Of a DNA stretch of 64,000 nucleotides, positions 10,139 through 61,970 are shown piece after piece. The translations under genes and the position numbers were made by a program. Position 1 is the first letter of the stretch. Each line of letters starts with the position of its first letter. The notes below the pieces were generated by a model. It saw nothing but the letters and a program-made list of their open reading frames with translations, was not told the origin of the DNA and ran no database searches. Source of the DNA: Sinohyriopsis cumingii (taxonomy: Eukaryota > Mollusca > Bivalvia > Unionida > Unionidae); NCBI GenBank assembly GCA_028554795.2, contig CM068838.1, positions 92,648,974 to 92,712,973 on the forward strand, written 5' to 3'.

Positions 10139-10517
10139 AGTAGTAAATGGGGGCACCCTAGCGACAATGGGAATTAGCATTACAAGACCCCTTGGGCAAC
10201 TCTAGCGACAATGGAAAATTAACATGGAGAAAAATCGTGGGACAATCTGGCGACAAGGGAAATTAACATGGAGAAAAATCGTGGGTCACTCTAGCGACAA
10301 GGGGAATTTAACATGGAACTATAGTGTGGGTCTGTCTAGCGACAAGGGGAAATTAAATATAGGAATAGAGTTTGGGTTTGTCTAGGGACAAGGGGAATTG
10401 AATATGGTTTTTTTTTTAAATTTAAATTTAAATTTAAATTTAAAAAAAGGGGTAGGCAATGGAAAGGCTATCTCTTTTCGAGAAATATGGCTGGCCCTGA
10501 AAAGGGCCTTTGGGTTT
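10139..10517 (+). repeat. Left terminal inverted repeat of element 1
   Basis: This is nearly the exact reverse complement of 26,889-27,268. The outer part holds tandem subrepeats around ctagcgacaagggga (about 10,157-10,395). Next comes a palindromic aaattt tract at about 10,418-10,445. The inner end contains the histone-like stem-loop and its downstream purine block, so the TIR carries the 3' end of the outermost gene. Confidence 0.95.
10493..10508 (-). terminator. Histone-type 3' stem-loop (SL1)
   Basis: On the minus strand this reads GGCCCTTTTCAGGGCC, a six-pair stem with a TTTC loop, matching the metazoan histone mRNA consensus. It is preceded by CCCAAA, as in histone messages, and followed by AGCCA and then CGAAAAGAGAT, which resembles a histone downstream element. 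It lies 25 nt after the stop codon of the gene at 10,534-10,920. Confidence 0.85.
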
Positions 10518-10533
10518 TCTTCTTCTTCTGCTT

Positions 10534-10920
10534 CTAATTTCTTCTTTTTCTCCACCAAGTTCTTATTTTATCTCCAACACTCTTTCTCTTCTTCTCTTTC
10601 CTTTTCTCCTGCTCTTCTTTCTTCTTCTTCTCTTCCTCCTCTTCTTTCTTCCTCTTCTCATTTTCTTCTTTTTCAATCTTTTCGTTCCATTTGCTTATTC
10701 TTATTCTTTCCTCTTCATCCTCCTTCTCCTCCTTTATCTCTTTCATGACACCACTAATCTTGTCCTTTACCTTTTTTAAGTTATTAATTTCCATCTTTAC
10801 ACGATGGGGACTATAGGAATAATGGTCTTCAACCAGTCTTATTAACATCTGCTCCATCATTCCTAAGTTGTCTAAAACGTCTTGTAATGTTTGTATTTTG
10901 TCCATTTGGTTAGAAGCCAT
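10534..10920 (-). CDS. L1: coiled-coil accessory protein, 128 aa
   Basis: The function is unknown. The frame starts at an ATG (10,918-10,920). The N-terminal half (to about residue 60) is probably helical. Residues 65-110 are an extreme Glu/Lys-rich coiled coil. The C-terminus is basic with GDKIRTWWRKRRN. The element 2 counterpart (60,177-60,774) ends in a similar DKIRGWWKKLRS although the rest differs, so this Trp-rich basic tail is the conserved part. The gene is monocistronic. It has two copies of the shared promoter element and ACTATAAG upstream, and a histone-like stem-loop 25 nt downstream. The frame is intact in element 1. Confidence 0.75.
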   Translation of the reverse strand: MASNQMDKIQTLQDVLDNLGMMEQMLIRLVEDHYSYSPHRVKMEINNLKKVKDKISGVMKEIKEEKEDEEERIRISKWNEKIEKEENEKRKKEEEEEKKKKEEQEKRKEKKRKSVGDKIRTWWRKRRN

Positions 10921-10964
10921 CTTCTTTTTTTATTCTTTGCAGAATGGTTTGAACGACGAATACT

Positions 10965-11079
10965 ATGGGTTCTTATAGTTAAAGCGCGTACGTGAAGGAA
11001 AACATCCCCCTAAAACGTAAAATTGATCTTACCTAGATCATGACCAAACAACGCGCGAACGTGAAGGAAAACATCCCCC
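10965..11079 (-). promoter_or_regulatory. L1 promoter: TATA box and two copies of the shared 29-bp element
   Basis: Minus-strand order is element (11,051-11,079), spacer, element (10,981-11,010), then CTATAAGAACC. The element core is GATGTTTTCCTTCACG followed by a GCGCTTT box, which abuts the TATA box by 3-4 nt. The same two-copy arrangement occurs in element 2 (60,836-60,933). The factor that binds it is unknown. Confidence 0.7.
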
Positions 11080-11094
11080 TACTTTTTCATTTCA

Positions 11095-11560
11095 TATAAT
11101 AAAACCCAAACTATACTTTCTCATTTCATTTAATAAAAACCCAAACTATACTCTCCACATACGCTAAGAAACAATAAACAAAATCCATAATCTACTATCC
11201 ACACAATCTTACGTGAGCGCTTACAAAACCCAAACTATACTCTTCACATACGCTAAGAACAATAAACAAATCCATAATCTACTATTCACACAATCGTACG
11301 TGAGCGGGTACAAACACAAACACAAACACACAAACACAAACACACAAACACATACGCTAAGAACAATAAACTAATCCATAATCTACTATCCACACAATCG
11401 TACGTGAGCGCTTACAGAACCCTAACTATACTCTTCACCTACGCTAAGAAACAATAAAGAAACCCATAATCTACTATTCCCACAAGCATATCTGAGCTCT
11501 TACAAGCACCAACACACAAACACATACCCTCACACTATCTTAAAAAAGAGTTAGTGTTTA
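11095..11560. repeat. Degenerate repeats in the L1-L2 spacer
   Basis: Repeated segments of roughly 80-120 bp contain acgctaagaaacaataaac, ccataatctactatccac and acgtgagcgcttaca. A short (CAAACA)n run lies at about 11,310-11,350. Shortened versions occur between the accessory genes of element 2. No gene is seen here. Confidence 0.7.
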
Positions 11561-11626
11561 TAATCACACTACTCTACCTACACACATTGGCAAATCGATC
11601 GTTATTTCTTTTCTAGAGTATTGGGT

Positions 11627-11642
11627 AGCCCTGAAAAGGGCT
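11627..11642 (-). terminator. Histone-type 3' stem-loop (SL2)
   Basis: Minus strand AGCCCTTTTCAGGGCT: the terminal G-C pair of SL1 is replaced by A-T, a compensated change that keeps the stem. It is followed directly by ACCCA and then AGAAAAGAAA. It lies 31 nt after the stop codon of L2. Confidence 0.85.
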
Positions 11643-11673
11643 GTTTTTTTTTTTGAACTTCATGGACACCTGG

Positions 11674-12051
11674 TTAATGGTGGCACCTTCCAGGCCTAGC
11701 GCCACATACACATCTTGTCCCCCAGTTACTTTTTACCTTTTTGGGGGAGAGAGCAGAGGCAGGATATGTCGCTTCAGAATCCCAATTTTCGCTCTCTGGG
11801 ATTCTGAAATTTCTTCTTCTTCTCTCCTTTTCCTCCTCCTCCTCTTCTTTGTATCTTCTCTCCTCCTCTTTGTATCTTCTTTCCTCTTCTTATTTATATC
11901 TTCTCTCCTCCTCTTCTTTGTTTCTTCTTTCCTCCTCCTCTCTTATCCTTCCCTCCTCCACAATGGCTTCCGCGGCCAGTTCATTTAATATGCGCCTGGC
12001 ATATTCCAGATGCACATGAAGTTCCAACAGTTTCTCCAGTCTCGTGTTCAT
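11674..12051 (-). pseudogene. L2: coiled-coil protein with CxCGARPGRC tail, one in-frame stop
   Basis: The counterpart in element 2 (61,206-61,514) is intact. The frame starts with ATG at 12,049-12,051. It carries an N-terminal helix containing LEYARRI and a Glu/Arg coiled coil, and it ends in a CVCGARPGRC motif followed by His residues, shared with element 2. A TAA at 11,890-11,892 (codon 54) interrupts the coiled coil in element 1, but the frame stays aligned to the end. Four closely spaced Cys/His could bind a metal. Function unknown. Confidence 0.75.
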
Positions 12052-12102
12052 TTTTGGTGTTGATCAATCAACAAGGGTAGCTGGACTGCCGAACGAGTTT
12101 CA

Positions 12103-12141
12103 ATTTATAGTGAAAGCGCGGACGTGAAGGAAAACATCCCC
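12103..12141 (-). promoter_or_regulatory. L2 promoter: TATA box and shared element
   Basis: CTATAAATTG (12,102-12,111) lies just downstream of the shared element at 12,113-12,141. A palindromic TTGATTGATCAA sits between TATA and start codon in both elements. Confidence 0.7.
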
Positions 12142-12500
12142 TAAAAACATAAAATTGATCTTACCTACATCATGACCAAAAAACAACAACGCGCGGACCT
12201 AAAAGAAACACTCACTCACTTTTTATGCTACCCATCACTATTTTAAAATTTTTTATAAATCACTTCAATATACTATCCACATACGCAAAGCAATCCAATC
12301 TAACCCCAAATTTACACCTCAAACACCAAAAAAAAAAAGACATCATTTTAATCTACTATCCATACCAATTTACTTAACCACTTACAAACACAAACACACA
12401 AACACATACCCTCACATTTTTTTTAAAAAAGAGTTAGTGTTTATTTTCACACTACTCTACCTACACACATTGGCAAATCGATTGTTATTTCTTTTCTAGA
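12142..12500. other. AT/AC-rich spacer between L2 and L3
   Basis: No gene is visible. It contains the block ataaaattgatcttacc also seen next to the other accessory promoters, A-rich tracts, and the conserved ttaaaaaagagttagtgttt stretch upstream of the stem-loop region. Confidence 0.6.
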
Positions 12501-12509
12501 GTATTGGGT

Positions 12510-12525
12510 AGCCCTGAAAAGGGCT
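12510..12525 (-). terminator. Histone-type 3' stem-loop (SL3)
   Basis: AGCCCTTTTCAGGGCT followed by ACCCA and AGAAAAGAAA on the minus strand, 32 nt after the L3 stop codon. Confidence 0.85.
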
Positions 12526-12557
12526 GTTTTTTTTTTTTGTTTGCTATGGCATTCTTT

Positions 12558-12914
12558 TTAGTTTCTAAGAATGCGATGTCCTCTGAGGATAGACTTTCTG
12601 GCGATAGGTCTGCTTCTTCGGAAAGAGAAGAAGAACTCTTTGGTGTCGATACGACAATCGACAAAGCCTCTGTCAGCTTCAGGTTGCTGCTGCTGCTCTT
12701 GTTGTTGTTGTTGCTGCTGTCTCTGAAGTCTGTACTTCTCTGTCCATTCTTCTTTTTCCCTGTTCATTTCTTCTCTGAAGAGCTCTTCTATCAGGTCTTC
12801 AGTGATTTTTCACATTCTCACATTCTCTATTTCTTCTGGCTTCGGTATCAGACTGTGTCTGACCCTATGCAAATTCACGTAGGCTTCGTTGAGTTTAGCT
12901 AGTTTGGAGCACAT
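12558..12914 (-). pseudogene. L3: polyglutamine accessory protein, one in-frame stop
   Basis: The counterpart in element 2 (62,004-62,366) is intact and nearly identical. The frame starts MCSKLAKLNEAY, has a charged helical middle, then a poly-Gln tract of about 12 residues and a conserved basic C-terminus with RRSRPIARKSILRGHRILRN. Codon 35 is TGA (12,810-12,812) where element 2 has a Leu codon, a one-base change. Function unknown. The stem-loop and promoter are retained. Confidence 0.8.
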
Positions 12915-12964
12915 CTTCTTAGGAGGATGAGTCGACAATGGATGGTTAGACTGGAAACAACCCG

Positions 12965-13005
12965 GTTCTTAAAGTCAAAGCGCGGACGTGAAGGAAACAT
13001 CCCCC
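12965..13005 (-). promoter_or_regulatory. L3 promoter with shared element
   Basis: The shared element is at 12,977-13,005 with one A missing from the A run. In place of a canonical TATA box it is followed by CTTTAAGAAC. Element 2 has the same CTTTAAGAACC at this spot. Confidence 0.6.
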
Positions 13006-13109
13006 ACACGGTTTTTGAGTCGCAGCGTTTAGTGAGTGTCATGAGAGGGATAGTAAGAAATGAAAGAGCATCGATCCAACATTCTTATAGCTAAACAAAA
13101 GACAAAGGC

Positions 13110-13297
13110 ATTTTTTTCAAAACACAACATTTTTTATTCAAAAATCACTTAACACTAAACAACAACTCTAACATTTTTAACAATAATCCAACAATATAAC
13201 ATCAAACAATTTTTTCAAAACACAACATTTTTTATTCAAAAATCACTTAACACTAAACAACAACAACTCTAACATTTTTTAACAACAATGCAACACT
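13110..13297 (-). repeat. Duplicated A/T-rich 3' UTR with two AATAAA signals
   Basis: Segments about 13,110-13,200 and 13,208-13,297 are direct repeats. Each holds AATAAA on the minus strand (13,133-13,138 and 13,231-13,236). They are probably the poly(A) region of the capsid array. Element 2 has one copy here, followed by the protease gene. The second copy in element 1 sits where protease and Cys-rich gene are missing. Confidence 0.8.
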
Positions 13298-13339
13298 AAA
13301 AGTTTCTCCACTAGGTAAAGAGGGATAACAGTCTTCCAT
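13298..13339 (-). pseudogene. Remnant (first 14 codons) of the Cys-rich gene
   Basis: The start codon at 13,337-13,339 and 13-14 codons match the 160-aa gene at 63,271-63,753 of element 2. Sequence then switches abruptly into the duplicated 3' UTR. The rest of the gene and the following protease are deleted. Confidence 0.85.
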
Positions 13340-13344
13340 GGTTT

Positions 13345-14658
13345 CTAGTAATCTAGGATGACTTCTCTCAAACTGTTGATTTCTATCGTATTATCGAATT
13401 CTGCATACAGGATGACGTTCACCGTTTCATCAGGGTCTCGGTCTTTAAACTGAATTTCCACACGAATCTGGCCGGATTTTATAGGGTGGAAATGTCCCTC
13501 GTCGCTGCCTTGGTCTGGAGTGAAATCGAAAGCCCACAAAGCGTAGCCTCCTGCATAATCCTCGTACGTAATACCGTGACTGGTATTGGTTCTTAACTGT
13601 CCGGTGGCTTCGTACAAGGACAAGTACGATCTCAAGTAATTCTTCTTTTTAAAGTCAGGTTCGAAAGGTCGGGTACACAAGGTCTTGCCATCGCGACTGA
13701 CTTCGATTTTGGACACGCCAAAGTGTTGAAAGTAGAAAGGATTTTTTTCGGCAGCTCCGTTGAAGGCTGTATTCTCGATGATACCAACGATCAAACGTTT
13801 GGGTAACTGTCCTTGGAACAGATGATCTTCGATCATGGATCGCTGTCCCTTGGGAATGGTGAAGGTTTTCACTTCCACGCGTCGTATGGGATACTTGGCG
13901 GTCGTTCTGCTCAACGTCTGACTGATGTCGTTTCCCACTTTAGGTAACACTTCCACACGGCGTACGTAGAGTCTGGCTTCTAGGATTTTGGTTTTGTAAC
14001 CGTCACTATCAGCCATCAAATGGAAAGCGGCACTGCTACGATTCAGTCTCAGGCGGACATCCACCCCGTTCAGCAAATACTTTTCTTGCAACCACATGTC
14101 CAAATGCAAACGATCCATCAGTTCTAAACTTGTGTCGGCTCCCGTGATTCTCTTTCTTCGTTCTACAAATCCATCATTGTTGTCTTTCTTTTCATCAGTT
14201 TCCAATATTTCAAACTTGGTAGGTTCGTCAGCTTCCCATACCACACAGGCATTGAGATGAGTGTTCTTGGCATCTATTCCGTACGTCAAGAGATTTTCCA
14301 GGTAGGCACGATAAGGGTAAGTATCCATGCTGCTACTGACCAGTTTGTTATTCAAATACAAGTCCACTCCACTGAACAAGGAATGCATGAAATTGTTGAC
14401 GGGAGCTACTGCTTCATCGTCTATAGCACCTCCATTCTTATCTAGAATTCTGACTTTCAGGTACAAGTAACTGCTATTCAGATCGATGTAATCTTCGGGC
14501 TGTCCTTTGATTTCAAACTCGATGGGAGCGGAATCGGTCAGTGAGGAGACGGGGTGAAATTCCCCCCACTGGGATTCTTGCATCGTCATCATCGTGGAGG
14601 GCATGGCAAACAGATCCAGTTCCGTCTTGGAACAAGCGCAAGATTCTCGGTGCATCAT
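13345..14658 (-). CDS. Major capsid protein (double jelly-roll, hexon-like)
   Basis: This is the major capsid protein of Polintons/adintoviruses, the family often labelled F54H12.2-like in animal genomes. It would form the pseudo-hexameric capsomers. Seen in the 437-aa frame: an N-terminal segment with SAPIEFEIKGQPEDYIDL, a central NNFMHSLFSGVDLYLN stretch and the family C-terminus with GHFHPIKSGQIRVEIQF and YAEFDNTIEI. The start is ATG ATG at 14,653-14,658. It lies 16 nt after the core gene and 5 nt before the Cys-rich gene start. The frame is intact. Compared with element 2, a seven-residue patch after VEIQF differs although both flanks match. Confidence 0.92.
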   Translation of the reverse strand: MMHRESCACSKTELDLFAMPSTMMTMQESQWGEFHPVSSLTDSAPIEFEIKGQPEDYIDLNSSYLYLKVRILDKNGGAIDDEAVAPVNNFMHSLFSGVDLYLNNKLVSSSMDTYPYRAYLENLLTYGIDAKNTHLNACVVWEADEPTKFEILETDEKKDNNDGFVERRKRITGADTSLELMDRLHLDMWLQEKYLLNGVDVRLRLNRSSAAFHLMADSDGYKTKILEARLYVRRVEVLPKVGNDISQTLSRTTAKYPIRRVEVKTFTIPKGQRSMIEDHLFQGQLPKRLIVGIIENTAFNGAAEKNPFYFQHFGVSKIEVSRDGKTLCTRPFEPDFKKKNYLRSYLSLYEATGQLRTNTSHGITYEDYAGGYALWAFDFTPDQGSDEGHFHPIKSGQIRVEIQFKDRDPDETVNVILYAEFDNTIEINSLREVILDY

Positions 14659-14674
14659 TTTTTTGTCTCTTTTC

Positions 14675-15091
14675 TCAATAATCGAAAACGTCTAAGTCTC
14701 GAACGGTTCTTCTTTTCTTGGCCTTTCTCGCTTGAAGTCTGGTGAAAGGGTGTTTTCTTCGTCGTCTCTTTCTGCCTTGTCCTTGCTGAATGCCTGACTC
14801 GGTAGCGTGCAGGGCATTTATAGGTGTTTCTCGTTGGCCTAAAATGTCTTTGCCCGTTTGCAGCAAGACATTTTTGCCTGCCCTCATGAAGGCTTCTTTA
14901 GGGTTTTGTTTGTCGATGATGACATTTTGGAGAAATTCTTTGCCTTGCGTCAGTGCCGCATCTTTCAAGGCGTGCAATCCGCGTGTCACCATCGGTTTCA
15001 ACACCGGGGCCACCGAACGAAAGGCCGATTTTAACATATCTCCTAAGCCGTGTCCTCGCTGTCGAGCAACCCCTCGGTACACTGGATACAT
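14675..15091 (-). CDS. Basic core / pVI-like minor virion protein, 138 aa
   Basis: This is a Polinton protein usually encoded beside the capsid gene. It has an N-terminal Gly-rich stretch (RGHGLGDMLKSAF) leading into an amphipathic helix and a Lys/Arg-rich C-terminus (GRKRRRRKH and ARKAKKRR) that can serve as nuclear localisation or DNA-binding sequence. Adenovirus-type cement or core roles are inferred by position and composition only. The start ATG is 3 nt after the penton stop codon. The frame is intact. Confidence 0.7.
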   Translation of the reverse strand: MYPVYRGVARQRGHGLGDMLKSAFRSVAPVLKPMVTRGLHALKDAALTQGKEFLQNVIIDKQNPKEAFMRAGKNVLLQTGKDILGQRETPINALHATESGIQQGQGRKRRRRKHPFTRLQARKAKKRRTVRDLDVFDY

Positions 15092-15094
15092 GAC

Positions 15095-16018
15095 TTAAGA
15101 GTCGTGAGAGAACCGTTTTCGAAAATGGAGTTTCACCGTGACTTTTCCTTTGGTGAATGGAATATTTTGTCCCAGATCTCCTTTTATAGCAATGTTGACC
15201 GTGTCCAAATACGACTTACTGACAGGCAAATAGTGAGGATGGACAAATTCGCGGTGGATGTGGTAAGTGTTTCCACCTTCCTCGTCAGTGTTCGTGGCAG
15301 AATCCACTTTGAAAGGAATGACACGCAGTAACGGTACGGAGGTGTGTCCCACCACGTTGTACTCCACCACATCGGAATACACGAACATCAAATTCAGTCC
15401 TTGGTTCAGTTCTACCGGGGCACGAAATAACTTGCTAAAAGACTCGTTGTCGTAAACGATGGGTAATTCGTTTTTCTTGATCATGGTCTTTCTCATGTCC
15501 GTGTCTCCGCCCAACATGTCATACAATTCAGGACAAAATAAAATGGACAGGATTTTACTCCGTTCAAATTTCATCAAGAAGCGACGAGCTGCTTTGTGGT
15601 ACTCCATGGTGACATTTTTGTTGACATGCTCCAAAGCTTTCAGAAACACGACATTAAACCTGGAGGTTATGGTGCTGATCAAATGTTGACCACTAAAATA
15701 ATAGCCTGGGGGAATGAACAAGTGATAGGTGGTGTACTTTTGTGTACGGGTTTTCTTGTCATATTTGACATTGCTATCCATCCACTGTTGCATTTGCTCG
15801 TCATGAACTTCCACATCAAAAAAATTTTGATTGGGAAGGACATTGAGGACTTGGGTCGGGTGAATCATTTCTACTAAAGCCACTTCCCAATGGGCTTCGT
15901 GATCTAACTGGATGGCCTGAGGTAATTTGGCCGTGTAACAGCACAACGTGTTCTTGGGAAACACCTCCATGGAACTGTCACTGGGTAAAGTTAAGTAAAA
16001 TTGGTTTTGGTGACTCAT
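15095..16018 (-). CDS. Penton-like minor capsid protein (single jelly-roll)
   Basis: This is the predicted vertex protein of Polinton/adintovirus capsids. The 307-aa frame opens with FYLTLPSDSSMEVFPKNTL and has the family pattern of a beta-rich N-terminus (WEVALVEMIHP) followed by an insertion domain. The ATG (16,016-16,018) overlaps the TGA of the upstream membrane-protein gene as ATGA. It lies directly upstream of the core and capsid genes, the usual Polinton order. The frame is intact. Confidence 0.88.
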   Translation of the reverse strand: MSHQNQFYLTLPSDSSMEVFPKNTLCCYTAKLPQAIQLDHEAHWEVALVEMIHPTQVLNVLPNQNFFDVEVHDEQMQQWMDSNVKYDKKTRTQKYTTYHLFIPPGYYFSGQHLISTITSRFNVVFLKALEHVNKNVTMEYHKAARRFLMKFERSKILSILFCPELYDMLGGDTDMRKTMIKKNELPIVYDNESFSKLFRAPVELNQGLNLMFVYSDVVEYNVVGHTSVPLLRVIPFKVDSATNTDEEGGNTYHIHREFVHPHYLPVSKSYLDTVNIAIKGDLGQNIPFTKGKVTVKLHFRKRFSHDS

Positions 16019-16431
16019 AATTCCAGAGTTCTGTGGCTGTCCGAGGGGTTACTGGACGTCAGAGGCGTGTCTCCGTCTAAAATGGGGTTCTGGTTGTGAT
16101 TGGAGCGGTGACTGGCACTGGCACTGGACACAAGGTTCCCGGGGTTCCCGTTCGAGGTGAATTTCAGGAAGGGATTAGGAAGCAGGTAACCGATGCAACT
16201 GCTCAATAAAATGGTCCACAATTGTTTGTCTCCTTGTTGCAAACTCAAATTGGCGATGGCTGCCCCGATGACACAATACACCACGAAGATTTGGCAGAAA
16301 TAGACGATTTGCGTTTTAGGCACACGTTCTCCACACCACACCCACAAGGGTTGTTTTTGTAAATCTTGCACAGAAGAACTAGGTGAAGGAGGAGTGGTCG
16401 ACGTAGCTGCGTCTGCTGTGTGAAAGGGCAT
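16015..16431 (-). CDS. Small conserved membrane protein, 138 aa
   Basis: Two hydrophobic segments (about residues 40-60 and 68-86 from the ATG at 16,429-16,431) are joined by a short loop. The second contains LLSSCIGYLLPNP, a motif I associate with a small Polinton protein encoded near the capsid genes. The N-terminus is Ser/Thr/Pro-rich and the C-terminus Ser/Asn-rich. The gene starts 5 nt after the integrase stop and overlaps the penton start. An in-frame GTG nine bases further upstream is less likely as start. A virion membrane or entry role is inference. Confidence 0.7.
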   Translation of the reverse strand: MPFHTADAATSTTPPSPSSSVQDLQKQPLWVWCGERVPKTQIVYFCQIFVVYCVIGAAIANLSLQQGDKQLWTILLSSCIGYLLPNPFLKFTSNGNPGNLVSSASASHRSNHNQNPILDGDTPLTSSNPSDSHRTLEL

Positions 16432-16436
16432 GATGG

Positions 16437-17546
16437 TCACTTCTTTTTATAGTCGATGACTTGCGAAGCGTCGATCCAAGAATCAAAACTGGGTGGATAT
16501 CCTTTCCAACGTACTTTGACTTCTTTGACACGTCGTTTGCCCACTTTACGGGTTCTGCGTTCGAGAATGCTTTCGATGTCGTACACGTCGTCCTCTTTTT
16601 TGGTGACACGTTGTAACTCGGGCAAATAAAACGTTCCTTTGAGCACTTCTCCGTTCATGTCTTCCAATTTATAGACGGCAGGATGACGGCCATGCACTCG
16701 TCCAGTGACGCGAAACAGTTCGGTGGTCCAGTTAGGTAAGTAACCTTTGTCGAAAGTGCGTTTGGTTTTGCCAATGCGCACCCAATCTCCTACGGCCAAC
16801 TCTCCACTTTTCTTGGGGACAGCCCTCGTCGGGGACGTACCAAACAGGCGCTCAAACACCAACACTTCGTTGTCGGGAGTCACGTCTTGCGGGGCACGTC
16901 CGATGCTTCGATGGTAAGATTGGTTGTACGCTTGCACCAGGTGCGGTAAGATGTCGATGTACTTCAGAGTGTGGTGATGCGTAAAATATTTCCACATGCG
17001 TTCTTTCAAAGTGCGTTGAAAACGTTCCACGATGCTGGCTTTGGTTTCGGGATTCTCGGTGGTAAAAAAATGAATGTCACGTTTCTTTAATTCTTTTTGG
17101 AAAGCTTGGTTCAGAAATTCGGTACCTTTGTCCGTTTGCCATCGAAGAGGGTGACGACCGCTTTATTTCAACACCCGTTGCAGGGCTCGCACTAACTCGC
17201 TGCTCGATTTGGAAGTCAAGGGCTCGACCCAGGCAAATTTGGAAAAGACGTCGATGACACAAAACAAATATTTGTAGCCACGATTGTAGCTGGCCAAATG
17301 AGAGACATCGGCTAAATCGGCTTGCCATTGATGATCGATGCCTTCCACTCGGGTGCGACTTCTGGCAAACTTGCGTCGAATGGGTTTGTGTAAAGTGTAG
17401 GTAGCTTGTTCTTGTAACCATCGTTGCACTTGAGGTAAACGGAGACTTTTCAGTCGCGTTTTGGCGGCACGATACAATTTTTGAACTCCTGCGTAACCTG
17501 CAGGATGGGAGGGATCGTAGTAAATGCTGGCTAAGACTTTTTCCAT
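16437..17546 (-). pseudogene. DD35E integrase with chromodomain, one in-frame stop
   Basis: This is a retroviral-type integrase as found in Polintons; it would insert the element with a 6-bp duplication. Codons 70-175 form the catalytic core. The first Asp (codon 77, WQADLADV), second Asp (139, TDKGTEF) and Glu (174, ASIVERF) give the canonical 35-residue spacing. The C-terminus is a chromodomain with VRWKGYPPSFDSWI. A single TAA at 17,163-17,165 (codon 128) separates the first and second catalytic residues, and the reading frame is unchanged after it. The start ATG is at 17,544-17,546, 21 nt after the previous gene. As it stands the protein would lack its active site. Confidence 0.93.
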
Positions 17547-17567
17547 TTTTTTGTGTTGGTTGGTGTG

Positions 17568-18206
17568 TTAATAAGACACCCACTCTTGGAGGATGCTACT
17601 CTTTTTCTCTTGGGGTATTTTCTTGGATTGCAATGCTTTGCGTGTGCGGCCAGCAATAGGTGTCGAAGAGGAGAAGGACGTCTGAGCGGGGGATATCGGT
17701 TCTCGTTTCACTTCTGTCTTCACTTCTGTCTTCACTTTCTTTTTCTCTTGTGAGGAAGAAGGGGTGGCCATCATCTTTTTAATCCATCTAATTCTGGAGG
17801 TAGGTGGTGTTGTTAACTTGCGTACTTTTTCTGGTGGAGTTTGAAACCCTTCCTCTTCTTCTCCTTTTTCTGTCTTGGTCACGGGTACTGGTGGTAGTGG
17901 TACTGGTACTGGTGATGGTGCTGGACTTTTCATCAAGGTCTTAAAATCTTTCAGAGTGGGTAGAGCTGTTTCGTCTAAAGCTTTCTGGTGAAAGAGTTGC
18001 AGTTGTTGCAAGAGTTGACCGTACTTTTGCGATTTTTCTGTTTCGGACAAATCTTGGCGATCCATCAAGGACTGCAATTCGTGTTGTAACTGGGACATCT
18101 CGCTCAAATGGGGATTGGGAGGTAAATGCGGGGTGCGTTGGTCTTGCCACCGATGGTATTCCATCCATCGTTTGTAAGGCACTAAAGCTAGTTTTCGTCC
18201 TTCCAT
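17568..18206 (-). CDS. Conserved Polinton protein starting with a VPYKRW motif, 212 aa
   Basis: The N-terminus (ALVPYKRWMEY) resembles an opening motif I have seen in uncharacterised Polinton/adintovirus proteins. Residues 35-95 are predicted coiled coil. Residues 100-135 are Pro-rich. The C-terminal third is Lys/Ser-rich and disordered with likely nuclear localisation signals. A virion or DNA-associated role is possible but unproven. A TATA-like GATAAAAAGG at 18,250-18,259 precedes it. It heads the array that continues through integrase to capsid without further TATA boxes. Confidence 0.6.
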   Translation of the reverse strand: MEGRKLALVPYKRWMEYHRWQDQRTPHLPPNPHLSEMSQLQHELQSLMDRQDLSETEKSQKYGQLLQQLQLFHQKALDETALPTLKDFKTLMKSPAPSPVPVPLPPVPVTKTEKGEEEEGFQTPPEKVRKLTTPPTSRIRWIKKMMATPSSSQEKKKVKTEVKTEVKREPISPAQTSFSSSTPIAGRTRKALQSKKIPQEKKSSILQEWVSY

Positions 18207-18249
18207 GGGGTTGTCAGGGGTCGATTCTGAGATCTTGGAACTTCCGAGG

Positions 18250-18259
18250 CCTTTTTATC
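18250..18259 (-). promoter_or_regulatory. TATA-like box for the 18,206 to capsid array
   Basis: GATAAAAAGG on the minus strand, overlapping the stop codon of the previous gene and about 44 nt upstream of the ATG at 18,206. Confidence 0.45.
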
Positions 18260-18641
18260 TTGCTCCCACCAGTCCTCCCAACATGGTTCCCAAGACTCCT
18301 TTCAGTATCGGGCCTAACAAGAGAGGTAAAATACCTCCACGTTGCACTAACATCTTCTTTTTTTGACGAATGGGAATTTTCTTTTGAACCATTTGGCGAA
18401 GAACGTGACGATGTTTGCCTAAGCATTTTTTGTGGTGTTTGGACAAAGGGATCGTGCCTTTCAAAACGTTCAAACAACATTCGCACAAGGTATCGATGAC
18501 CTCTTTGGAGGCTGTTTGAATGAGTTTTTTTCGTAGGGGTGGAGAAGCTTTGGACAGGACAGATAACATGTCCCCATGTTTGGCTAAACGTGGTGGCAGT
18601 CCTTTCCTTTTCTTTCCTTGGGGTTTTCTGGAGGGTGACAT
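18255..18641 (-). CDS. Small basic protein with hydrophobic glycine-rich tail, 128 aa
   Basis: Residues 1-95 are Lys/Arg-rich and contain a Cys pair (CECC). The C-terminus is hydrophobic and Gly-rich (GGILPLLLGPILKGVLG and GGLVGAR). Short basic proteins with such tails recur in Polintons and recall adenovirus pX/mu composition, where the mature peptide condenses DNA; homology is not shown here. The ATG at 18,639-18,641 is preferred over an upstream GTG. A clear TATA box lies about 55 nt upstream. The frame is intact. Confidence 0.65.
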   Translation of the reverse strand: MSPSRKPQGKKRKGLPPRLAKHGDMLSVLSKASPPLRKKLIQTASKEVIDTLCECCLNVLKGTIPLSKHHKKCLGKHRHVLRQMVQKKIPIRQKKKMLVQRGGILPLLLGPILKGVLGTMLGGLVGAR

Positions 18642-18695
18642 CTTTGAGTCTTCAGGAGCACCAAAAAACACTGATACCCGACTTGGTCACAGGCC

Positions 18696-18704
18696 TTTTT
18701 TATA
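18696..18704 (-). promoter_or_regulatory. TATA box of the 18,641 gene
   Basis: AGTATAAAAAAGG on the minus strand, overlapping the end of the preceding gene. Confidence 0.65.
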
Positions 18705-19615
18705 CTGGAACGCGTCGCCACTGATTGTCTTTACGTCGTATTAGTTTGAGGACAGGCATGACACGTCGTGCAGGGGTACGTAACGGACTAAATCGAGCCA
18801 GTTCTTGCTTGGACAAATCCAGTAAACTTTGTAACATGCCCGATCTTTCTTGAACTTTGATTTTGGGAGAAGGTACTTTGTGAGCAGCCGCCACTGCCAC
18901 TAAATTGGAAGGTCCTGCCACTGGGGAAGTTCTTTTGGGGGTCATCAACGGAGAAGTTCTTGGTGTGATCAACGTCTCCAAGTACTCTTCAGTTCTGGGT
19001 GTCATTAACGGAGAAGTGGACAAACGTGAAGCTGCCGGAGACGCAGTCACCGCCGTGGCAGATCGTGGTTTGCGAGTGTAAGGTTGCGTCTTGGCCGAAG
19101 TGCCTCTCTTGCGACTAGTTTTCTGTGGACTTTTCTTTTTCTGGGGGCTTCTTTTCTTTTTCCGGGGTGGTGGTGTCTGATCAGAGGAGGGTCCTGCCAC
19201 TGGAGAAGTTCTCCTTGGGGACCTGGTCTTTTTGTTCTTGGGGCTTCGTTGGACTTTTGTCTTGGGTATAACTTTGGGGGCATTACTATCCCATCTTAAG
19301 AGTGAGCGAATGATGACCCCTCCTAGAGTACCGCTCCCTCCAGGTTTCAAAATGATTTGTTTTTTGGTTTGAGTGTCGATGCGGGGATCGGCCAGTTGGA
19401 CCAAAGCGACTTTGTTTCGATCAAAAAAGTTTGGTTTGATGAGGAATCTGAATGATTCCTTGGAGTAATTGACGTGCCGTCACCGTGAACCATCGTAAGA
19501 CTTCTTTGAGACTAGCTTCTAAGACACGAACTCGTGTTTGTGGATTTTTTTCTCGGCTGATGCCATACAAGGCACGAATCAATTTGACGGGAAGATGCGA
19601 CTGAAGGGACGTCAT
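18700..19615 (-). pseudogene. Basic disordered protein split by a one-base frameshift
   Basis: Two frames overlap. The first (ATG at 19,613-19,615) gives 64 residues with helices LPVKLIRALYGI and VRVLEASLKEVLRWF. The second has no ATG near its beginning, yet is open from about 19,480 and reads plausibly (FLIKPNFFDRNKVALVQLAD, then GGSGTLGGVIIRSLLRW). After that comes a long Lys/Pro/Ser tail with repeated SPLMTP and TSPVAGPS. The simplest reading is one gene of about 300 codons broken near 19,470-19,485. The first part could be a histone-fold-like helix pair, but this is weak. A programmed shift cannot be excluded. Confidence 0.55.
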
Positions 19616-19651
19616 GTTCGCACTGTGTGAGACAGACTAAAAAGGGTCTGA

Positions 19652-19662
19652 GGTTTTTATAG
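19652..19662 (-). promoter_or_regulatory. TATA box of the 19,615 gene
   Basis: TCTATAAAAACC on the minus strand, overlapping the stop of the ATPase gene and about 40 nt before the ATG. Confidence 0.65.
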
Positions 19663-20412
19663 ATTTTTTGATGGGGAGTGAAATGAAGTCGAGGACGGAG
19701 ACGTGTACAGGACAGGCCCTCCGTCTTGGCACCAGTGGTGAAACAAGTGGGTACGAAATCGCAAATCCTCTGGAGTCGTAGGTTTCAAATCGACGAGTAA
19801 ATAGGCGTGTGGCGTTTGAGTGGCATCGTCGTACGCCTGAGTCAGCCAAGGCGTTCCTAACTGTTTGGCTAAGACTTGCACTTGCGATTTATCTCGAGGG
19901 CTTTTAAACAAGGCCACGTAATGCGCATTGAGACTGATGGTGCGATGGGCTTTACTTTGTTGAAACAAATTTTGGGTGATGTAAACGACACTGGCATTAC
20001 GGTGATGCCCTTTGCGCGTGAACCACAGTTTAATTTCTTCTTCGTCTTCTCCTAACATGTCGTCGAAAATGACCAAATGGGTTTGACGGGAGTCAGAGAC
20101 GATGCCGTCGTCTTCTTTAGGAATGCCTTCCACAAACACGATGGAATCGCCTTGACTTTCTCGCAAGAGGCTGTACGCCGATTGCCACTCTTTGTAACAC
20201 CACACGATCCGTTGAGGGGGCCGATCGATCAAATGATGTTTATGTTCGATCAAACGTTTGACGAATTCAGTTTTGCCAGAACCGCTAGGTCCAGCAATGA
20301 GCATGTTAAAGGGATGGCGAAGATACAAAGCCTCCCAACTGGCACGATCTAAATGTTCGTCGATGACTTTGACAGTAGAGGAAGAGGGAGCAGAGACAGT
20401 AGAGGTAGCCAT
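19657..20412 (-). CDS. Genome-packaging ATPase (A32 / FtsK-HerA family)
   Basis: This is the DNA-translocating ATPase predicted to package element DNA into capsids. The 251-aa frame has Walker A GPSGSGKT (41-48), Walker B HLVIFDD (112-118) and the downstream VVYITQNLF segment (about 143-151) typical of the A32-like family. The chosen ATG at 20,410-20,412 is in a CCATGG context, 50 nt after a TATA box (20,461-20,470). The frame is intact. Confidence 0.93.
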   Translation of the reverse strand: MATSTVSAPSSSTVKVIDEHLDRASWEALYLRHPFNMLIAGPSGSGKTEFVKRLIEHKHHLIDRPPQRIVWCYKEWQSAYSLLRESQGDSIVFVEGIPKEDDGIVSDSRQTHLVIFDDMLGEDEEEIKLWFTRKGHHRNASVVYITQNLFQQSKAHRTISLNAHYVALFKSPRDKSQVQVLAKQLGTPWLTQAYDDATQTPHAYLLVDLKPTTPEDLRFRTHLFHHWCQDGGPVLYTSPSSTSFHSPSKNL

Positions 20413-20460
20413 GGTGTGAGGAATGTCACTTGTGACACGAAAAAACAAACAAGACAAGAG

Positions 20461-20489
20461 TTTATATACTTTTTCAGAACACGTTTATT
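20461..20489 (-). promoter_or_regulatory. ATPase TATA box and upstream poly(A) signal
   Basis: AGTATATAAA (20,461-20,470) serves the ATPase. AATAAA (20,484-20,489) 14 nt earlier probably ends the transcript of the polymerase and/or the small gene downstream of it. Confidence 0.65.
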
Positions 20490-20639
20490 GAATGTTTTTT
20501 TCAAACATGAATACGAAAGACAAAAATACATAAAAGCCAAAGGCTTAAGTACAAGAATAAAAGGCACATGAACGTGGAATAAAAAACAAGTGTCTGTACA
20601 ACAACCACATGTTTTGGGTAAAGTTCTAACCAGTTCTAT

Positions 20640-20943
20640 AGTAGGGGGTAAGGTCACACAAGTGTCCTCCCGAAAGGGTCTTTCAGGCCTGTCCACGACA
20701 GTCCTGTCCTGGGTGACGGGTTCTTCTGGCACCGTCACTAACACAGGTTGAAAAGTAACTTTTTTCCTTGAATAACTCTCGTGCATACTGGGCCACCTCT
20801 TGTGTCCAAGCCTCAAAACCCTGGTCTCGGTGATGTCCAACATTTGACTCCTAACCAATCTGGTTTCTTCTTCGTCAACGACATGGTATGTTACTTCAAT
20901 GAACAATGAACTATTGGTCTTGGACGTTGTCCCTTTTTATATG
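20640..20943 (-). other. Promoter and short overlapping frames after the polymerase
   Basis: GCATATAAAAAGGG at 20,931-20,944 is a good TATA box inside the polymerase C-terminus. The first ATG below it (20,882-20,884) opens only 23 codons. The next frame continues with a helical GFEAWTQEVAQYARELF, and a third frame stays open to 20,349 with an ATG at 20,841-20,843. A small gene existed or exists here, but I cannot decide which frame is real or whether a one-base shift broke it. Confidence 0.35.
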
Positions 20944-23900
20944 CTGACCAATATCGATGTGACCGTACGGCAACGTAAAGTGATTGGGAAGTCTCATTCG
21001 CTTCTGGTACACGATTTGATAGATTTTTTCCAGGGGCCGACTGACGATGTGGTGAGTGGGTAAACGTACAATCTTGTTCGGTTGATAAGTGGTCACTTTA
21101 AAGTTTCCATCCTCTCCCGATTGCAAGGCTTCTTTCAATACCCCAAAGTTGACCACTCGACTGGTACGATGATTCAGAGTCAGTCCTTTCACTTTGCACG
21201 TCGTGTGCACTTCTCCTTGTTTGTCCCGGTATTCGTAGCCGTAATTTTTGGGACCACCACTGACGAAACTTAGAATCTTGTCGTCGGGATGCTCATCTGT
21301 CCAGGCTCCTAAACGGTCTCCTTCGATGTCAGGGTGCTGTTGAATCGGGTGATGGATGTAAATGCAACTGTCCGTGTCAAAGTACAGGACGCGTTCTTCT
21401 AACAGTTCTAAAGCTTCGTACAATTTTAAGCGAGCATGAGCTGTCACGTAAGCCGCAATGATGACATTTCCAAAAGGGTCGTCTTGTACAAAGTCCAGAT
21501 CTTCTTCGTAATTGACCAAGATCAAATCCTCTCGAACGACGTCCACGTGTTTCATGTATTTGGTTTTGTCGTGAATCATCTGGAAGTAGCGGGAAGGTTC
21601 TGTCAAATATTCCGTCTTGGGTAAACACGGTCGTTGTGCCATTTTACCCCACAAGCAATTTAACATCACTTTGGCAAACGATCGCCTGCCTTCGTTTTTC
21701 TCTATGTGGTCTAAAGTGATGCCTTCTTGTTCATAGTATTTCTCTTTGAATTGTATTTGGTTTTCGGGAGTGTGACACCAGGAAGGATAGCCGCTGGCTT
21801 CTTGTTTCAGTTTCAAAAAGGCATCCACGTAGTCGGCGAAAATGCCTTTCTGAGTAGGGTCACCCTTGTGGTACTGTTGTGTCTTGGGAAAGTGGCAAAT
21901 TTCGTACACTTCTAACAGTTGGTATCCCATGTCCAGAGCTTTGAACAATTCCACGCTGACCCAGGTTCCCGTCAAGGCACGTTCTTCCTGGCTGTGATGG
22001 CAAGGTTGGTCCTGGTTGCACGTTTCGGCACAAGTACGGCACAAGGGAAACATCAGTTTGCCTTGACAATGGTGAGGTAAGACGGGATGGTATAGGTTCG
22101 TGGGAGGCAAAACTTTACACTTGATCAAGCCTTCGTATTGTCGAATGTTTTTCAGGTCGATGTGTTCCGTGAACAATTGCGGGTGCCCTACAGGAAAGCG
22201 ACAATATTTGCACACGTAGGGATACAGCGAACACACGTCCAAGTATTTGATTTCTTCTCCTTTCTCTTCGTCGGCTTGGTACAACAAACAGGTGGCATTG
22301 GTCCTTCCTCCGTACAAACTATCCCTCGGGTTCAGCGGGTCCATGAACTGGTAACTTTCCACGAGGCGTTTAAACTCGGGATCGGTTTTCAAACGGTGAT
22401 CGTACTCGTGTTCCCACATTTCCACCACTTGGTATCCTTGCTGTTCTAACTTTAGGCGTCGCTGACAAGTGTCCTGGTACAAGTCTTCCATGGTTCGTTG
22501 CAAAAACTGATTTTTAGTGTCACGATCAGGGTAACAGATGGGACATCCGTGAAATAAGCAACCGTTAAACTCGTACACGATCTTGGGGTTTTCTAAGTCC
22601 CAGCCATCTACCGAATACGTTCCGATGGTCTTTTCGCCTCCTCCGTTGCGGGCATGCTAAATCCATTTGTCTTCCTTGTCGTACAAGTAATGTAACCAAC
22701 GTAGGGCTTTGACCGAGTATTGACGCTTGACATAGTGGGTCGTTTGAGGACTGATGACAGCCACGGTGTTTTCAGGCATGAATCGTTGGCGGTACACTAA
22801 GGAACACGCTTTGGCAATGGTGCAAGCTTCTTTCAAAGGATCGACCCCTCCGTGTTCCATGAACAGTTCTCGAAATTTTCCACAGCAACGTCGTAAAATG
22901 TCCACGTCGGAACGACAATACTTTAACATTTCTTCCTGAAAGTCGAAGGGGTCAGAGGCATGAGCCTGGTACCAAGCGTAGAAAGCTTCTCGTTGTTCGG
23001 TACGCATGTTGTCGGGGTCGTAATAGTGAGCCTCAGGTAAATGGGGTAGAACGGCATGTTGATTGGCTTTCGTATTGAAAAAGTGTGGAAAGTACCCTTT
23101 AGCCATTTCTGTCATTCCAAACGTTTTAGGCATTCGACTCAAAGGCATGGCCAAGTAACTCATCGAATCTTTAAACTGTACTTGTCCCACTTGCATGAAA
23201 ATGATTTTGGCTCCGTTCAAAGTGACTTTAGGACGTTCGGTACCTTGTTCCGTATAGTATCTGAGAAGAAACTGTCCATCGTATCCGGAGAAATTGTGAG
23301 CCATCACCGTGGCATGACGATGACAATCTCCGTAACGTTCGATGTCCTCTTTGCTCCATGTCTTGTCGATGGGGTCTAAGACCCATTGGGCAAAATCGGC
23401 TAACGTGTTTGGTCCTCGAAAGATTTTTTCACGTCCTCCAGGAATCTTGCTGCAGTGAGGGCAATGACTGAAGATAGGTTCTTGAATGAACTTCTCGCAC
23501 GCTCGATGAGCCACGCAGAAATTAGGAATGTGAATGCCGGTCTCTTGCATGCATTCGAAATCGAAAAAGATGAAATTGCCTTTCTTCTTGTGACCGTCCT
23601 CTTCCTCTGGTGGGGGTTGGTATTTTTGCACGTAACATTCGTGTTCCAAGTCCACGATGTGGTGACAAATGTGACATTTTTTCTTTCCTCGACATACGTG
23701 TGCCTTGTTTCTATTGGTACGTATGCCTTGTCCACACGTAGGGCACAATCTCAGGAGTTGACAAGCACATTTCTTCTGTGAACCTTGTGTTTTCAAATGT
23801 TGCTGGTAACAGGTAGGGCTGACAAACGTGCGCAGACAAGTTGAACAAGGCACTGGTTCTTCGCTCAGACAGGGTGGAGAGGCCAAACATCCTGGGCATT

Positions 23901-24849: not shown

Positions 24850-25019
24850 GTCCTCTTCAAAATCACTGGCATGAATTTGTGCCAAGATTTCAGCCCTAGT
24901 ACGAGGCGATAGATCACGTTTCTGCCTCTTACTTTCTTCTTCTTCTTTCTTCTCGAATGAATAGGATCGTTTGATCTTGAGTGCAAAACGTCAAATGACT
25001 CAAGTTCAAACACCACAGA

Positions 25020-25057: not shown

Positions 25058-25108
25058 GGTGTGTCTTGTCCTTTCACTATTCATTTCACTCTCAAACCGA
25101 GGAGAACG

Positions 25109-59797: not shown

Positions 59798-60165
59798 AGT
59801 AGTGAAGGGGGGCACCCTACGGACAATGGGAATTACCATTAAAAACACCCTTGGGGCACTCTACGGACAATGGAAATTTAACATGGAGAAAAATCGTGGG
59901 GCACTGTACGGACAAGGGGATTTAACATGGCAATAAATCGTGGGTCACTCTACGGACAAGGGGAATTTAACATGGCAATAAATCGTGGGTCACTCTACGG
60001 ACAAGGGGAATTTAACATGCGAATAAATCGTGGGTCACTCTACGGACAAGGGGAATTTAACATGGGATTTTTTTTCTTTAAATTTTTTTAAAAAAGGGGT
60101 AGGCAATTCAAAAGGCTATCTCTTTTCGAGAAATATGGGGGCCCTGAAAAGGGCCTTTGGGTTTT
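59798..60165 (+). repeat. Left terminal inverted repeat of element 2
   Basis: Same architecture as element 1 but with ctacggaca in place of ctagcgaca. It has 45-bp tandem subrepeats (aatttaacatggcaataaat, cgtgggtcactctacgga). It ends at the stem-loop and TTTGGGTTT. Only this end is visible. Confidence 0.85.
60140..60155 (-). terminator. Histone-type 3' stem-loop (SL6)
   Basis: GGCCCTTTTCAGGGCC with CCCAAA before and CCCATATTTCTCGAAAAGAGAT after on the minus strand. It is 21 nt after the corrected L1 stop codon. Confidence 0.85.
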
Positions 60166-60176
60166 TTCTTCTTCTT

Positions 60177-60774
60177 TTAACTTCTTAACTTCTTCCACCA
60201 TCCTCTTATTTTGTCCATCATTCCTTTCTTCTTTTTCTTTTCTGTTTCCGGCAACCAGTCCGGGTGGCCCATGGCCCGGAACTTCTCTTGGATTTTCATC
60301 CAGTTTGTGTTCAGTTTTTCGAATTCATCCCTTTTTTTTTCTATTTTCTTCTTCTTTTCTTTCCTTTAACCACTTTTCTTTGATCTTCTTGACCTCTTCG
60401 GTCAGCACATTCCTCATTAGTTCTTCAGCTTTCTTAAGTTTTTCTAACCCCCACTTCGCGAAACACCAATCTGTCCATTCTACGATGTCTTCTAGAAAGC
60501 ACCTTGCACTCGTCACATGATCTATCGCTTCTTTTAACTTACCCACTTTGACATACGGTGGGTTAATTAAACCTCTGATTCTCTTCTCCTCATCCTGTAT
60601 CATTTCTTTTACAATATTTACGGATAAGTGGAGGCTGGTTACTTGTCTTGAGACGAAGTCTTTTGTCACTGCATACCTCCATTCCTGTTCAACCCTTTCT
60701 ACTACACTCAATCCATCTACCATCCAATACCAACTTCCCATAAGATCGTTGTATAAAGCTGAAGCTGCTGGCAT
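60177..60774 (-). pseudogene. L1 of element 2, frameshifted in an A9 run
   Basis: The frame from ATG 60,772-60,774 runs 149 codons and then stops just after an A9 run (plus-strand T9 at 60,332-60,340). The adjacent frame continues coherently for about 50 codons, with NTNWMKIQEKF and DKIRGWWKKLRS, to TAA at 60,177-60,179. Both the tail similarity to element 1 L1 and the normal 21-nt distance to the stem-loop indicate that this is the true end. The N-terminal 120 residues are Trp-rich and helical and unlike element 1. The cause could be mutation or an assembly error in the homopolymer. Confidence 0.7.
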
Positions 60775-60824
60775 CTTCTTGTTTGCTTATTCCGTAGAAT
60801 GGGTTCCAATGGCCAACACTGTTA

Positions 60825-60933
60825 GTTTTATACTCAAAGCGCGAACGTGAAGGAAAACATCCCCTAAAAACATAAAATTGATCTTACCTAGATCATGACC
60901 CAACAACGCGCGGACGTGAAGGAAAACATCCCC
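60825..60933 (-). promoter_or_regulatory. L1 promoter of element 2
   Basis: Two copies of the shared element (60,836-60,864 and 60,905-60,933). TATA box GAGTATAAAACT lies 3 nt after the GCGCTTT box. Confidence 0.7.
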
Positions 60934-61160
60934 TAATTTCTCATTTCATGTAATAAAACCCTAACTTTACTCTTCACATACGCTAAGAAACCCATAATCT
61001 ACTATTCACACAAACATACCTTAGCTCTTACAAACACAAACACACAAACACACAAACTCATACCCTCACACTATCTTAAAAAAGAGTTAGTGTTTATATA
61101 CACACTACTCTACCTACACATTGGCAAATCTATCGTTATTTCTTTTCTAGACTATTGGGT

Positions 61161-61176
61161 AGCCCTGAAAAGGGCT
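61161..61176 (-). terminator. Histone-type 3' stem-loop (SL7)
   Basis: AGCCCTTTTCAGGGCT, ACCCA and AGAAAAGAAA on the minus strand, 29 nt after the L2 stop. Confidence 0.85.
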
Positions 61177-61205
61177 GTTTTTTTTAAAACTCCAGATGCA
61201 CCTAT

Positions 61206-61514
61206 CTAATGGTTGCACCTTCCTGGCCTGGCGCCGCACACGCATCTTCTTCCCCAGTCTTCTTTCACCTTTCTTCTGGGGAGCGCAGAGGGAGGATGAT
61301 TCGCTTCAGCACCCCAATCCTCTGTTTCAGGAATATTAAACGACATCATCTCTTCTCTTTTCTTTTCCTCCTCTTCCCTCTGTCTTTTCTCCTCTTCTTC
61401 CTTCTTTATTCTTGCTTCTTCTACTATAGCCTCCGCTGATAGTTCGTTTACTATCCGCCTGGCATATTCCAGGTACATCTGGAGTTCTAACAGTTTCACT
61501 ATTCTGCTAGTCAT
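61206..61514 (-). CDS. L2 of element 2: coiled-coil protein with CxCGARPGRC tail
   Basis: The 102-aa intact counterpart of 11,674-12,051. It starts MTSRIVKLLELQ at ATG 61,512-61,514. Residues 40-58 are a Glu/Arg coiled coil. The C-terminus RRCVCGARPGRCNH is shared with element 1. Conservation of the tail against a divergent middle suggests the Cys motif is the functional part, perhaps a metal site. Not recognised as a known family. Confidence 0.75.
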   Translation of the reverse strand: MTSRIVKLLELQMYLEYARRIVNELSAEAIVEEARIKKEEEEKRQREEEEKKREEMMSFNIPETEDWGAEANHPPSALPRRKVKEDWGRRCVCGARPGRCNH

Positions 61515-61572
61515 TTTTCTGGCTGTGTTGATCAATCAACAAGGGTAGCTGGACTGCCGAACGAGTTTCAAT

Positions 61573-61610
61573 TTATACTGAAAGCGCGGACGTGAAGGAA
61601 AACATCCCCC
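61573..61610 (-). promoter_or_regulatory. L2 promoter of element 2
   Basis: AGTATAAATTG is directly downstream of the shared element (61,581-61,610). The TTGATTGATCAA palindrome lies before the ATG. Confidence 0.7.
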
Positions 61611-61954
61611 TAATAACATAAAATTCATCTTACCTAGATCATGACCAAAAAAAACAACAACGCGCGGACCTAAAAGAAACACTCGCTCACTTTTTTATGC
61701 TACCCATCACTTCAATAGACTATCCACATACGCAAAGCAATCCAATCTAACCCCAAATATACACCTCAAACAGCCCAAAAAAACAAACATCATTTTAATC
61801 TACTATCCACACCAACCTACTTTATCACTTACAAACACAATCACACAAACTCATACCCTCAAAATTTTTAAAAAAGAGTTAGTGTTTATTTTCACACTAC
61901 TCTACCTTCACACATTGGCAAATCGATCGTTATTTCTTTTCTAGAGTATTGGGT

Positions 61955-61970
61955 AGCCCTGAAAAGGGCT
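61955..61970 (-). terminator. Histone-type 3' stem-loop (SL8)
   Basis: AGCCCTTTTCAGGGCT, ACCCA and AGAAAAGAAA on the minus strand, 33 nt after the L3 stop. Confidence 0.85.

Follow-up and report, generated by a model that had tools for sequence, protein, structure and literature searches.

In animals, histone mRNAs acquire their 3' ends when SLBP binds a hairpin, U7 small nuclear RNA (snRNA) engages a purine element and CPSF73 cuts the transcript, which carries no poly(A) (PMC7807067; PMC5011920; PMC9756948). The hairpin sequence GGCCCTTTTCAGGGCC is one of those with which human histone stem-loops have been located (PMC7807067). Bivalve histone mRNAs also have the hairpin, and in Lucina pectinata only a subset of the genes was noted to have purine elements (PMC6210712). 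Moreover, an Rfam scan at gathering cut-offs of 8,300 genomes of polinton-like viruses and virophages reported six histone 3' untranslated region stem-loops, and none of those matches to RF00032, the Rfam histone 3' stem-loop, fell in the 1,107 cryptophyte elements (PMC12220804). Here we analyzed a 64-kb stretch of repetitive eukaryotic DNA from the bivalve Sinohyriopsis cumingii (contig CM068838.1; the whole stretch is called the window), which holds one two-ended Polinton (E1) and the left part of a related second one (E2). In both elements a cassette of histone-type hairpin and purine block stands directly behind unrelated genes, and the cassette occurs once more in a distant element.

E1 is flanked on either side by the 6-bp target duplication CTTGCC, and its terminal inverted repeats (TIRs) are 99% identical over the 218 nt compared. 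The window contains eight exact copies of the 14-mer GCCCTTTTCAGGGC, every one inside E1 or E2. An earlier reading of this DNA, made without database searches (the sequence-only reading), had listed eight such hairpins, and their coordinates and strands proved correct, as did their placement in sense orientation 21-33 nt past a stop codon in all eight cases, or 22-34 nt when measured to the 14-mer. The flanks were also as described, with ACCCA after the hairpin in five copies, AGCCA in two and CCCAT in one, and CCCAAA ahead of it in three. The two elements and the eight modules are as follows.

10139..27268, no strand: Polinton E1, both ends present (AGTAGT...ACTACT); target-site duplication CTTGCC, 6 bp, at 10133-10138 and 27269-27274
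59798..64000, no strand: Polinton E2, left part; the remainder lies beyond the window
10468..10513, minus strand: E1 left TIR, inner edge: module with hairpin 10493-10508 and purine block; RF00032 35.6 bits
11602..11647, minus strand: AGCCC-type module past gene A of E1; RF00032 31.0 bits, E 6.4e-5, below the gathering cut-off of 34
12485..12530, minus strand: AGCCC-type module past gene B of E1; RF00032 31.0 bits
25792..25836, minus strand: module past the conserved 186-aa gene of E1; RF00032 41.2 bits
26893..26938, plus strand: E1 right TIR, inner edge: TIR module in outward sense; RF00032 35.6 bits; preceded by a frame of only 39 codons
60116..60160, minus strand: E2 left TIR, inner edge: module; RF00032 32.2 bits
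61136..61181, minus strand: AGCCC-type module past gene A of E2; RF00032 31.5 bits; predicted minimum-free-energy fold of the 46 nt differs from the hairpin
61930..61975, minus strand: AGCCC-type module past gene B of E2; RF00032 31.0 bits

All eight sites match RF00032 (E <= 6.4e-5), three of them above the gathering cut-off, and a scan of the window at E <= 0.5 returned no match besides these sites. The purine block that the sequence-only reading had seen is indeed present at every site, and GAAAAGARAT begins 12-13 nt after the 16-nt hairpin rather than at the 12-15 nt that had been given. The modules fall into about three types: the TIR type (10493 and 26898, the two TIR copies of E1, and 60140 in the homologous E2 TIR), the AGCCC type (11627, 12510, 61161 and 61955, four copies of one duplicated module, all with an A-U terminal pair) and the single module at 25816. 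Pairing is preserved through the change of the terminal pair from G-C to A-T, which had been read as covariation; since neither the TIR copies nor the copies of the duplicated AGCCC module are independent, this change may be one event. We predicted folds for seven of the modules (the one at 26893, identical in sequence to 10468, was left out), and the hairpin was the predicted minimum-energy fold in six of them; modules with a GGCCC hairpin were equalled in folding by 0-3 of 200 shuffled sequences.

Another short sequence, TTTGCCAAT, is common to the four AGCCC modules and the module at 25816, in each case about 32-33 nt after the hairpin and past the purine block. A ninth hairpin-like match on the minus strand at 39158 was rejected, as it has two mismatches and no purine block and lies outside both elements.

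11586-11594, 12469-12477, 25774-25782, 61120-61128 and 61914-61922, minus strand: copies of TTTGCCAAT

These sites are far more frequent than expected by chance. At up to two mismatches, the 14-mer was observed nine times in the window compared to 0.15 expected. A paired hairpin followed by an AAAGA block occurs eight times in the elements and not at all in the 42.6 kb of the window outside them; hairpin plus block was found once in 85.8 kb of other loci (in the contig L004, described below). Among random sequences of element composition (400 of 21 kb) there was one such site in total, and among those of window composition (n = 100) there was none. Similarly, an open frame of 60 codons or more ends 20-35 nt ahead of the hairpin at seven of eight sites, compared to 5.4% of strand positions; if an ATG is required, the figures are five of eight compared to 1.7% (60 aa) and four of eight compared to 1.0% (100 aa). 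The corresponding binomial probabilities (1e-8 to 7e-7) overstate the enrichment at gene ends, because the copies are related. The counts of 14-mers, of nearby frames and of sites in random sequences nevertheless refute a chance origin, to which we assign a negligible probability.

In the comparisons among copies other than that of gene B between E1 and E2, the module is better conserved than the sequence around it. Genes A and B are 17-33% identical in the 180 nt before the module, 96-98% over the module and 88-91% in the next 66 nt. For gene A, E1 and E2 are 69-71% identical before the module and 98% over it, then 92% and 79% after it. The TIR modules of E1 and E2 are 96% identical, compared to 71% beyond them in fixed blocks (82% along the arms without gaps). 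Furthermore, the module forms the inner edge of the E1 TIRs, and the two TIR copies diverge just upstream of AAACCCAAAG and the hairpin, so that the inverted repeat provides two different outward sequences with one 3' end. Judged by these alignments, the module resembles a functional 3'-end signal more than carried-along coding sequence, and it has the look of a portable gene-end cassette.

A search of genome contigs with a capsid profile yielded seven contigs with Polinton pieces (L001-L007). Their titles name bacterial metagenome-assembled genomes (MAGs; for example Escarpia and Bathymodiolus symbionts, Breoghania and a Rickettsiaceae bin), and they appear to be eukaryotic contamination; L006, which is Polinton-like and bears the title of a Rickettsiaceae MAG, also encodes a TFIIB repeat protein (5700-6395, minus strand; PF00382, E 1.5e-8). 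In an RF00032 scan one of the seven fragments exceeded the cut-off (L004, 35.8 bits). L004 (8,883 bp) encodes an rve integrase (PF00665), PolB, and capsid-like and protease-like proteins, and its capsid-like protein is 32% identical to that of E1. Its hairpin, GGCCCTTATCAGGGCC, has the loop TATC in place of the TTTC of the window, one loop base off the GGCCC type, a change presumably allowed by the histone consensus, which we take to be GGYYYUHHUHARRRCC. The hairpin lies 28 nt past the stop of an 89-aa C2H2 zinc-finger open reading frame (ORF), its purine block, AAAAAAGAGAT, starts 12 nt after it, and the ACCCCA that follows it places the CA one base later than in the window. It faces seven CCMTTGTC repeats at the contig end (about 19-222), and there are none in the rest of L004. 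The same motif, picked after the TIRs had been read, occurs six times per TIR in the same orientation in all three TIRs of E1 and E2.

573-842 of L004, minus strand: C2H2 zinc-finger accessory ORF; adjoins the apparent Polinton end
10139-10492, 26914-27270 and 59797-60139 of the window: six degenerate direct CCMTTGTC repeats per TIR

Within the window, 18 of 24 CCMTTGTC copies are inside the TIRs; L003 has two copies and L007 has one. The repeats are possibly the binding site of an element protein, and in L004 they look like an end of the kind seen in E1 and E2, although this is a candidate TIR only, the other end being outside the contig. In place, orientation and order the L004 features agree with those in E1 and E2, in an element that is distant and behind a gene that is unlike theirs. 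The window has those marks of a metazoan histone pre-mRNA 3' end which are testable from DNA (hairpin, flanks, CA, and a purine element at a like distance), as the sequence-only reading had held, and L004 repeats them. Searches of IMG/VR for relatives with the capsid-like protein, the polymerase, the integrase and a second hairpin pattern found none; two exact hairpin-pattern matches there (L008 and L009) were rejected as phage-like DNA with no purine block.

The genes ahead of the modules are small ORFs as listed here.

10534..10920, minus strand: accessory ORF, 128 aa, K/E-rich, outward-facing; stop 25 nt ahead of the hairpin
12558..12767, minus strand: gene B of E1, 69-aa ORF (120 aa in E2)
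25857..26417, minus strand: 186-aa accessory gene with 20 homologues at E <= 0.001; its C-terminal basic block is conserved
60325..60774, minus strand: E2 ORF, 149 aa, upstream of the TIR module; the hairpin follows a separate 62-codon frame by 21 nt
61206..61514, minus strand: gene A of E2, encoding 102 aa, with 5 homologues (E <= 0.001)
62004..62366, minus strand: gene B of E2, 120 aa

Gene A of E1 (the frame before 11627) is a 71-codon open frame without an ATG, the frame before 26898 has just 39 codons, and the 62-codon frame before 60140, distinct from the 149-aa ORF immediately upstream, has its first methionine at residue 23. In an alignment of 16 of its 20 homologues, the 186-aa protein shows a conserved DILAELRSLK stretch and the basic PKRKRPSRAK block; its matches among solved structures were weak (best E 0.026), and no relatives of it were found in IMG/VR. 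A Pfam scan of six accessory ORFs (10534, 25857, 60325, 61206, 62004 and 63271, the last without a module; genes A and B of E1 were left out) gave no match, and hence no histone domain. Among 20 ORFs of the window, an LXCXE motif was found in none of the accessory ones; the single instance is LFCPE in the 307-aa ORF at 15095. We take the accessory ORFs for real, lineage-specific Polinton genes.

The core genes tested have no module within 500 nt.

13345..14658, minus strand: capsid-like gene of E1; no Pfam match; no module within 500 nt; AATAAA 108 nt past the stop
16437..17546, minus strand: integrase region of E1, two ORFs, chromodomain; no module
19657..20412, minus strand: packaging ATPase of E1, Pox_A32; no module
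20911..24849, minus strand: family B DNA polymerase of E1, two ORFs; no module
62687..63247, minus strand: protease-like ORF of E2; no Pfam match; no module within 500 nt; AATAAA 104 nt past the stop

The viral family B polymerase domain PF03175 was matched in each of the two polymerase ORFs, and the ATPase matched PF04665 (32.7 bits compared to a cut-off of 22.8). The integrase region includes a chromodomain ORF, and its two ORFs share 33-51% identity with the integrases of L001 and L004. The Pfam scan of the E1 capsid-like and E2 protease-like proteins gave no match, and both identities are presumed from likeness and gene order. Homologues of the capsid-like protein adjoin the integrase genes in L001 and L004. 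Among the 120 of its 1,033 homologues that were listed (25 of which were aligned), some are 78-84% identical, and the animal-named relatives are clam and oyster proteins called 'F54H12.2-like' (45-52% identity). On the minus strand of E1, 12767-13345 holds no listed ORF of at least 60 aa, and the equivalent region of E2 (62687-63753) holds the protease-like ORF and a 160-aa ORF, which suggests a deletion in E1.

The distribution of poly(A) signals differs between these genes. Neither AATAAA nor ATTAAA occurs within 500 nt at five of the eight module sites (10534, gene A of E1 and of E2, 60325, and 26913 on the plus strand). Together, the core genes without a module and the AATAAA 104-108 nt past the stops of the capsid-like and protease-like genes suggest two classes of 3' end in one element.

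The window also contains repeats away from the modules. A tandem array with a 34-nt period begins at 37008, between E1 and E2, with 47 overlapping copies of a 300-nt reference, of which the 30 printed reach 38293. Positions 1-6500 and 44700-52480 have a number of stretches in common, spaced by about 45-46 kb and reaching 97% identity over 300 nt; these are perhaps a segmental duplication or shared repeats.

We consider it probable that the mRNAs of these non-histone Polinton accessory genes receive host SLBP- and U7-dependent, histone-type 3' processing. The host stem-loop binding protein would bind the hairpin in the nucleus, the purine block would pair with the U7 ribonucleoprotein, and cleavage by the CPSF73 complex would fall about 5 nt after the hairpin, the distance at which histone transcripts are cleaved, yielding short mRNAs without poly(A). 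The 5' end of human U7, which we take to be CUCUUUU and which is that of human rather than of the host, would pair with AAAAGAG of the TIR-type block. Cassettes would serve at the ends of single genes, with core genes lacking them, and at the inner edge of a TIR a cassette would stop outward transcription. SLBP is specific to S phase, so production of the accessory proteins would coincide with host DNA replication. We infer the binding, the cleavage, the absence of poly(A) and the S-phase expression from the DNA.

Several observations weigh against this proposal. Five of the eight RF00032 matches score below the Rfam cut-off, and the number of independent events is small, with module types 81-83% alike in the two comparisons made. 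Module 61136 is predicted to adopt another fold (-10.4 kcal/mol, compared to -9.0 kcal/mol for the hairpin of its sisters), and the AGCCC modules that do fold into the hairpin were equalled by 13 of 200 shuffles. Three of the eight gene frames appear broken or incomplete. Gene B of E1 and E2 is 96% identical before the module, 96% over it and 94% after it; with no excess conservation, this pair is uninformative about constraint on the module. AATAAA occurs 91-113 nt past the stop of gene B (in both E1 and E2) and of the 186-aa gene, which has a further AATAAA between stop and hairpin; poly(A) forms or dual ends are thus possible for these genes. Finally, the other six of the seven Polinton fragments had no RF00032 match. 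Most of them lack element ends: L001, L005 and L007 break off close to core genes, and L002 and L003 either are degraded or continue into other DNA. However, L006, which has non-core ORFs and a capsid-like protein 27% identical to that of E1, is a real negative.

Alternatively, the modules may function mainly as compact, transferable gene ends or insulators, with the S-phase programme incidental and with both ends used where AATAAA follows. This reading, which we regard as possible and somewhat improbable, is consistent with where the module stands (on the edge of the TIRs of E1 and E2, and next to TIR-like repeats in the case of L004), with the AATAAA after three of eight modules, and with the dual hairpin and poly(A) ends of human H2A.X mRNA (PMC7807067); the five sites without AATAAA or ATTAAA within 500 nt argue against it, as does the S-phase specificity of SLBP in known animals (PMC7807067). 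We think it unlikely that the hairpin is a functionless remnant of a host histone gene end captured once in the past and spread via TIRs and tandem duplications. The likeness of the module types, the gene B pair and the broken frames would fit such a history, but the TIR and gene A modules are 96-98% identical between E1 and E2 compared to 22-92% in surrounding blocks, the change of the outer pair preserves pairing, and the distant L004 retains hairpin and purine block despite another loop and another gene. Three of the eight copies lie inside TIRs, as might be expected if the palindrome served the DNA itself (as a replication origin, or in packaging or TIR recombination) and resembled a histone end by convergence; however, the other five copies are internal, all eight are in sense just past stop codons, the purine block stands at a constant 12-13 nt in all copies, and RF00032 also scores sequence outside the palindrome, which makes such a role very improbable. 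Host histone-type processing of the accessory mRNAs is the reading that we prefer.

A broader proposal is that animal Polintons as a group tie some of their gene expression to the cell cycle of the host via the histone 3'-end system, that within the literature searched they are the first mobile DNA element or virus for which this is described, and that the arrangement is old, being shared at 32% capsid-like identity; we advance this tentatively, as close to an even question. If the 3' ends are as proposed, virus-like elements would put the histone mRNA end on other genes, the timing of Polinton accessory gene expression would become a hypothesis that can be tested directly, and RNA-seq with poly(A) selection would miss such transcripts. 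Hairpin plus purine block also offers a sequence handle for finding such genes. We found no description of histone-type ends on Polinton, Maverick or adintovirus genes in the open full-text literature searched. The statement of the sequence-only reading that there was no such report therefore appears to hold for use at gene ends within that literature, but the bare occurrence of RF00032 in relatives had already been counted (PMC12220804).

Compared with known systems, E1 and E2 between them share with Polintons or Mavericks and the related adintoviruses the family B polymerase, chromodomain integrase, A32-like ATPase, presumptive capsid-like and protease-like genes, TIRs and 6-bp target-site duplication. 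The matches in PMC12220804 are of the same RF00032 family and in related elements, but they appear there as counts, and the passage that reports them does not take up their hosts, genes, orientation or purine element. Human H2A.X resembles gene B and the 186-aa gene in having a hairpin with a downstream poly(A) signal, and differs in being a host histone gene (PMC7807067). A further close likeness is to the 3' ends of metazoan replication-dependent histone genes, which have the same hairpin, flanks, CA after the hairpin, purine element with its spacing, and short distance from the stop; unlike these, the scanned genes here have no histone domain and lie in a Polinton, and four copies of the hairpin close with an A-U pair.

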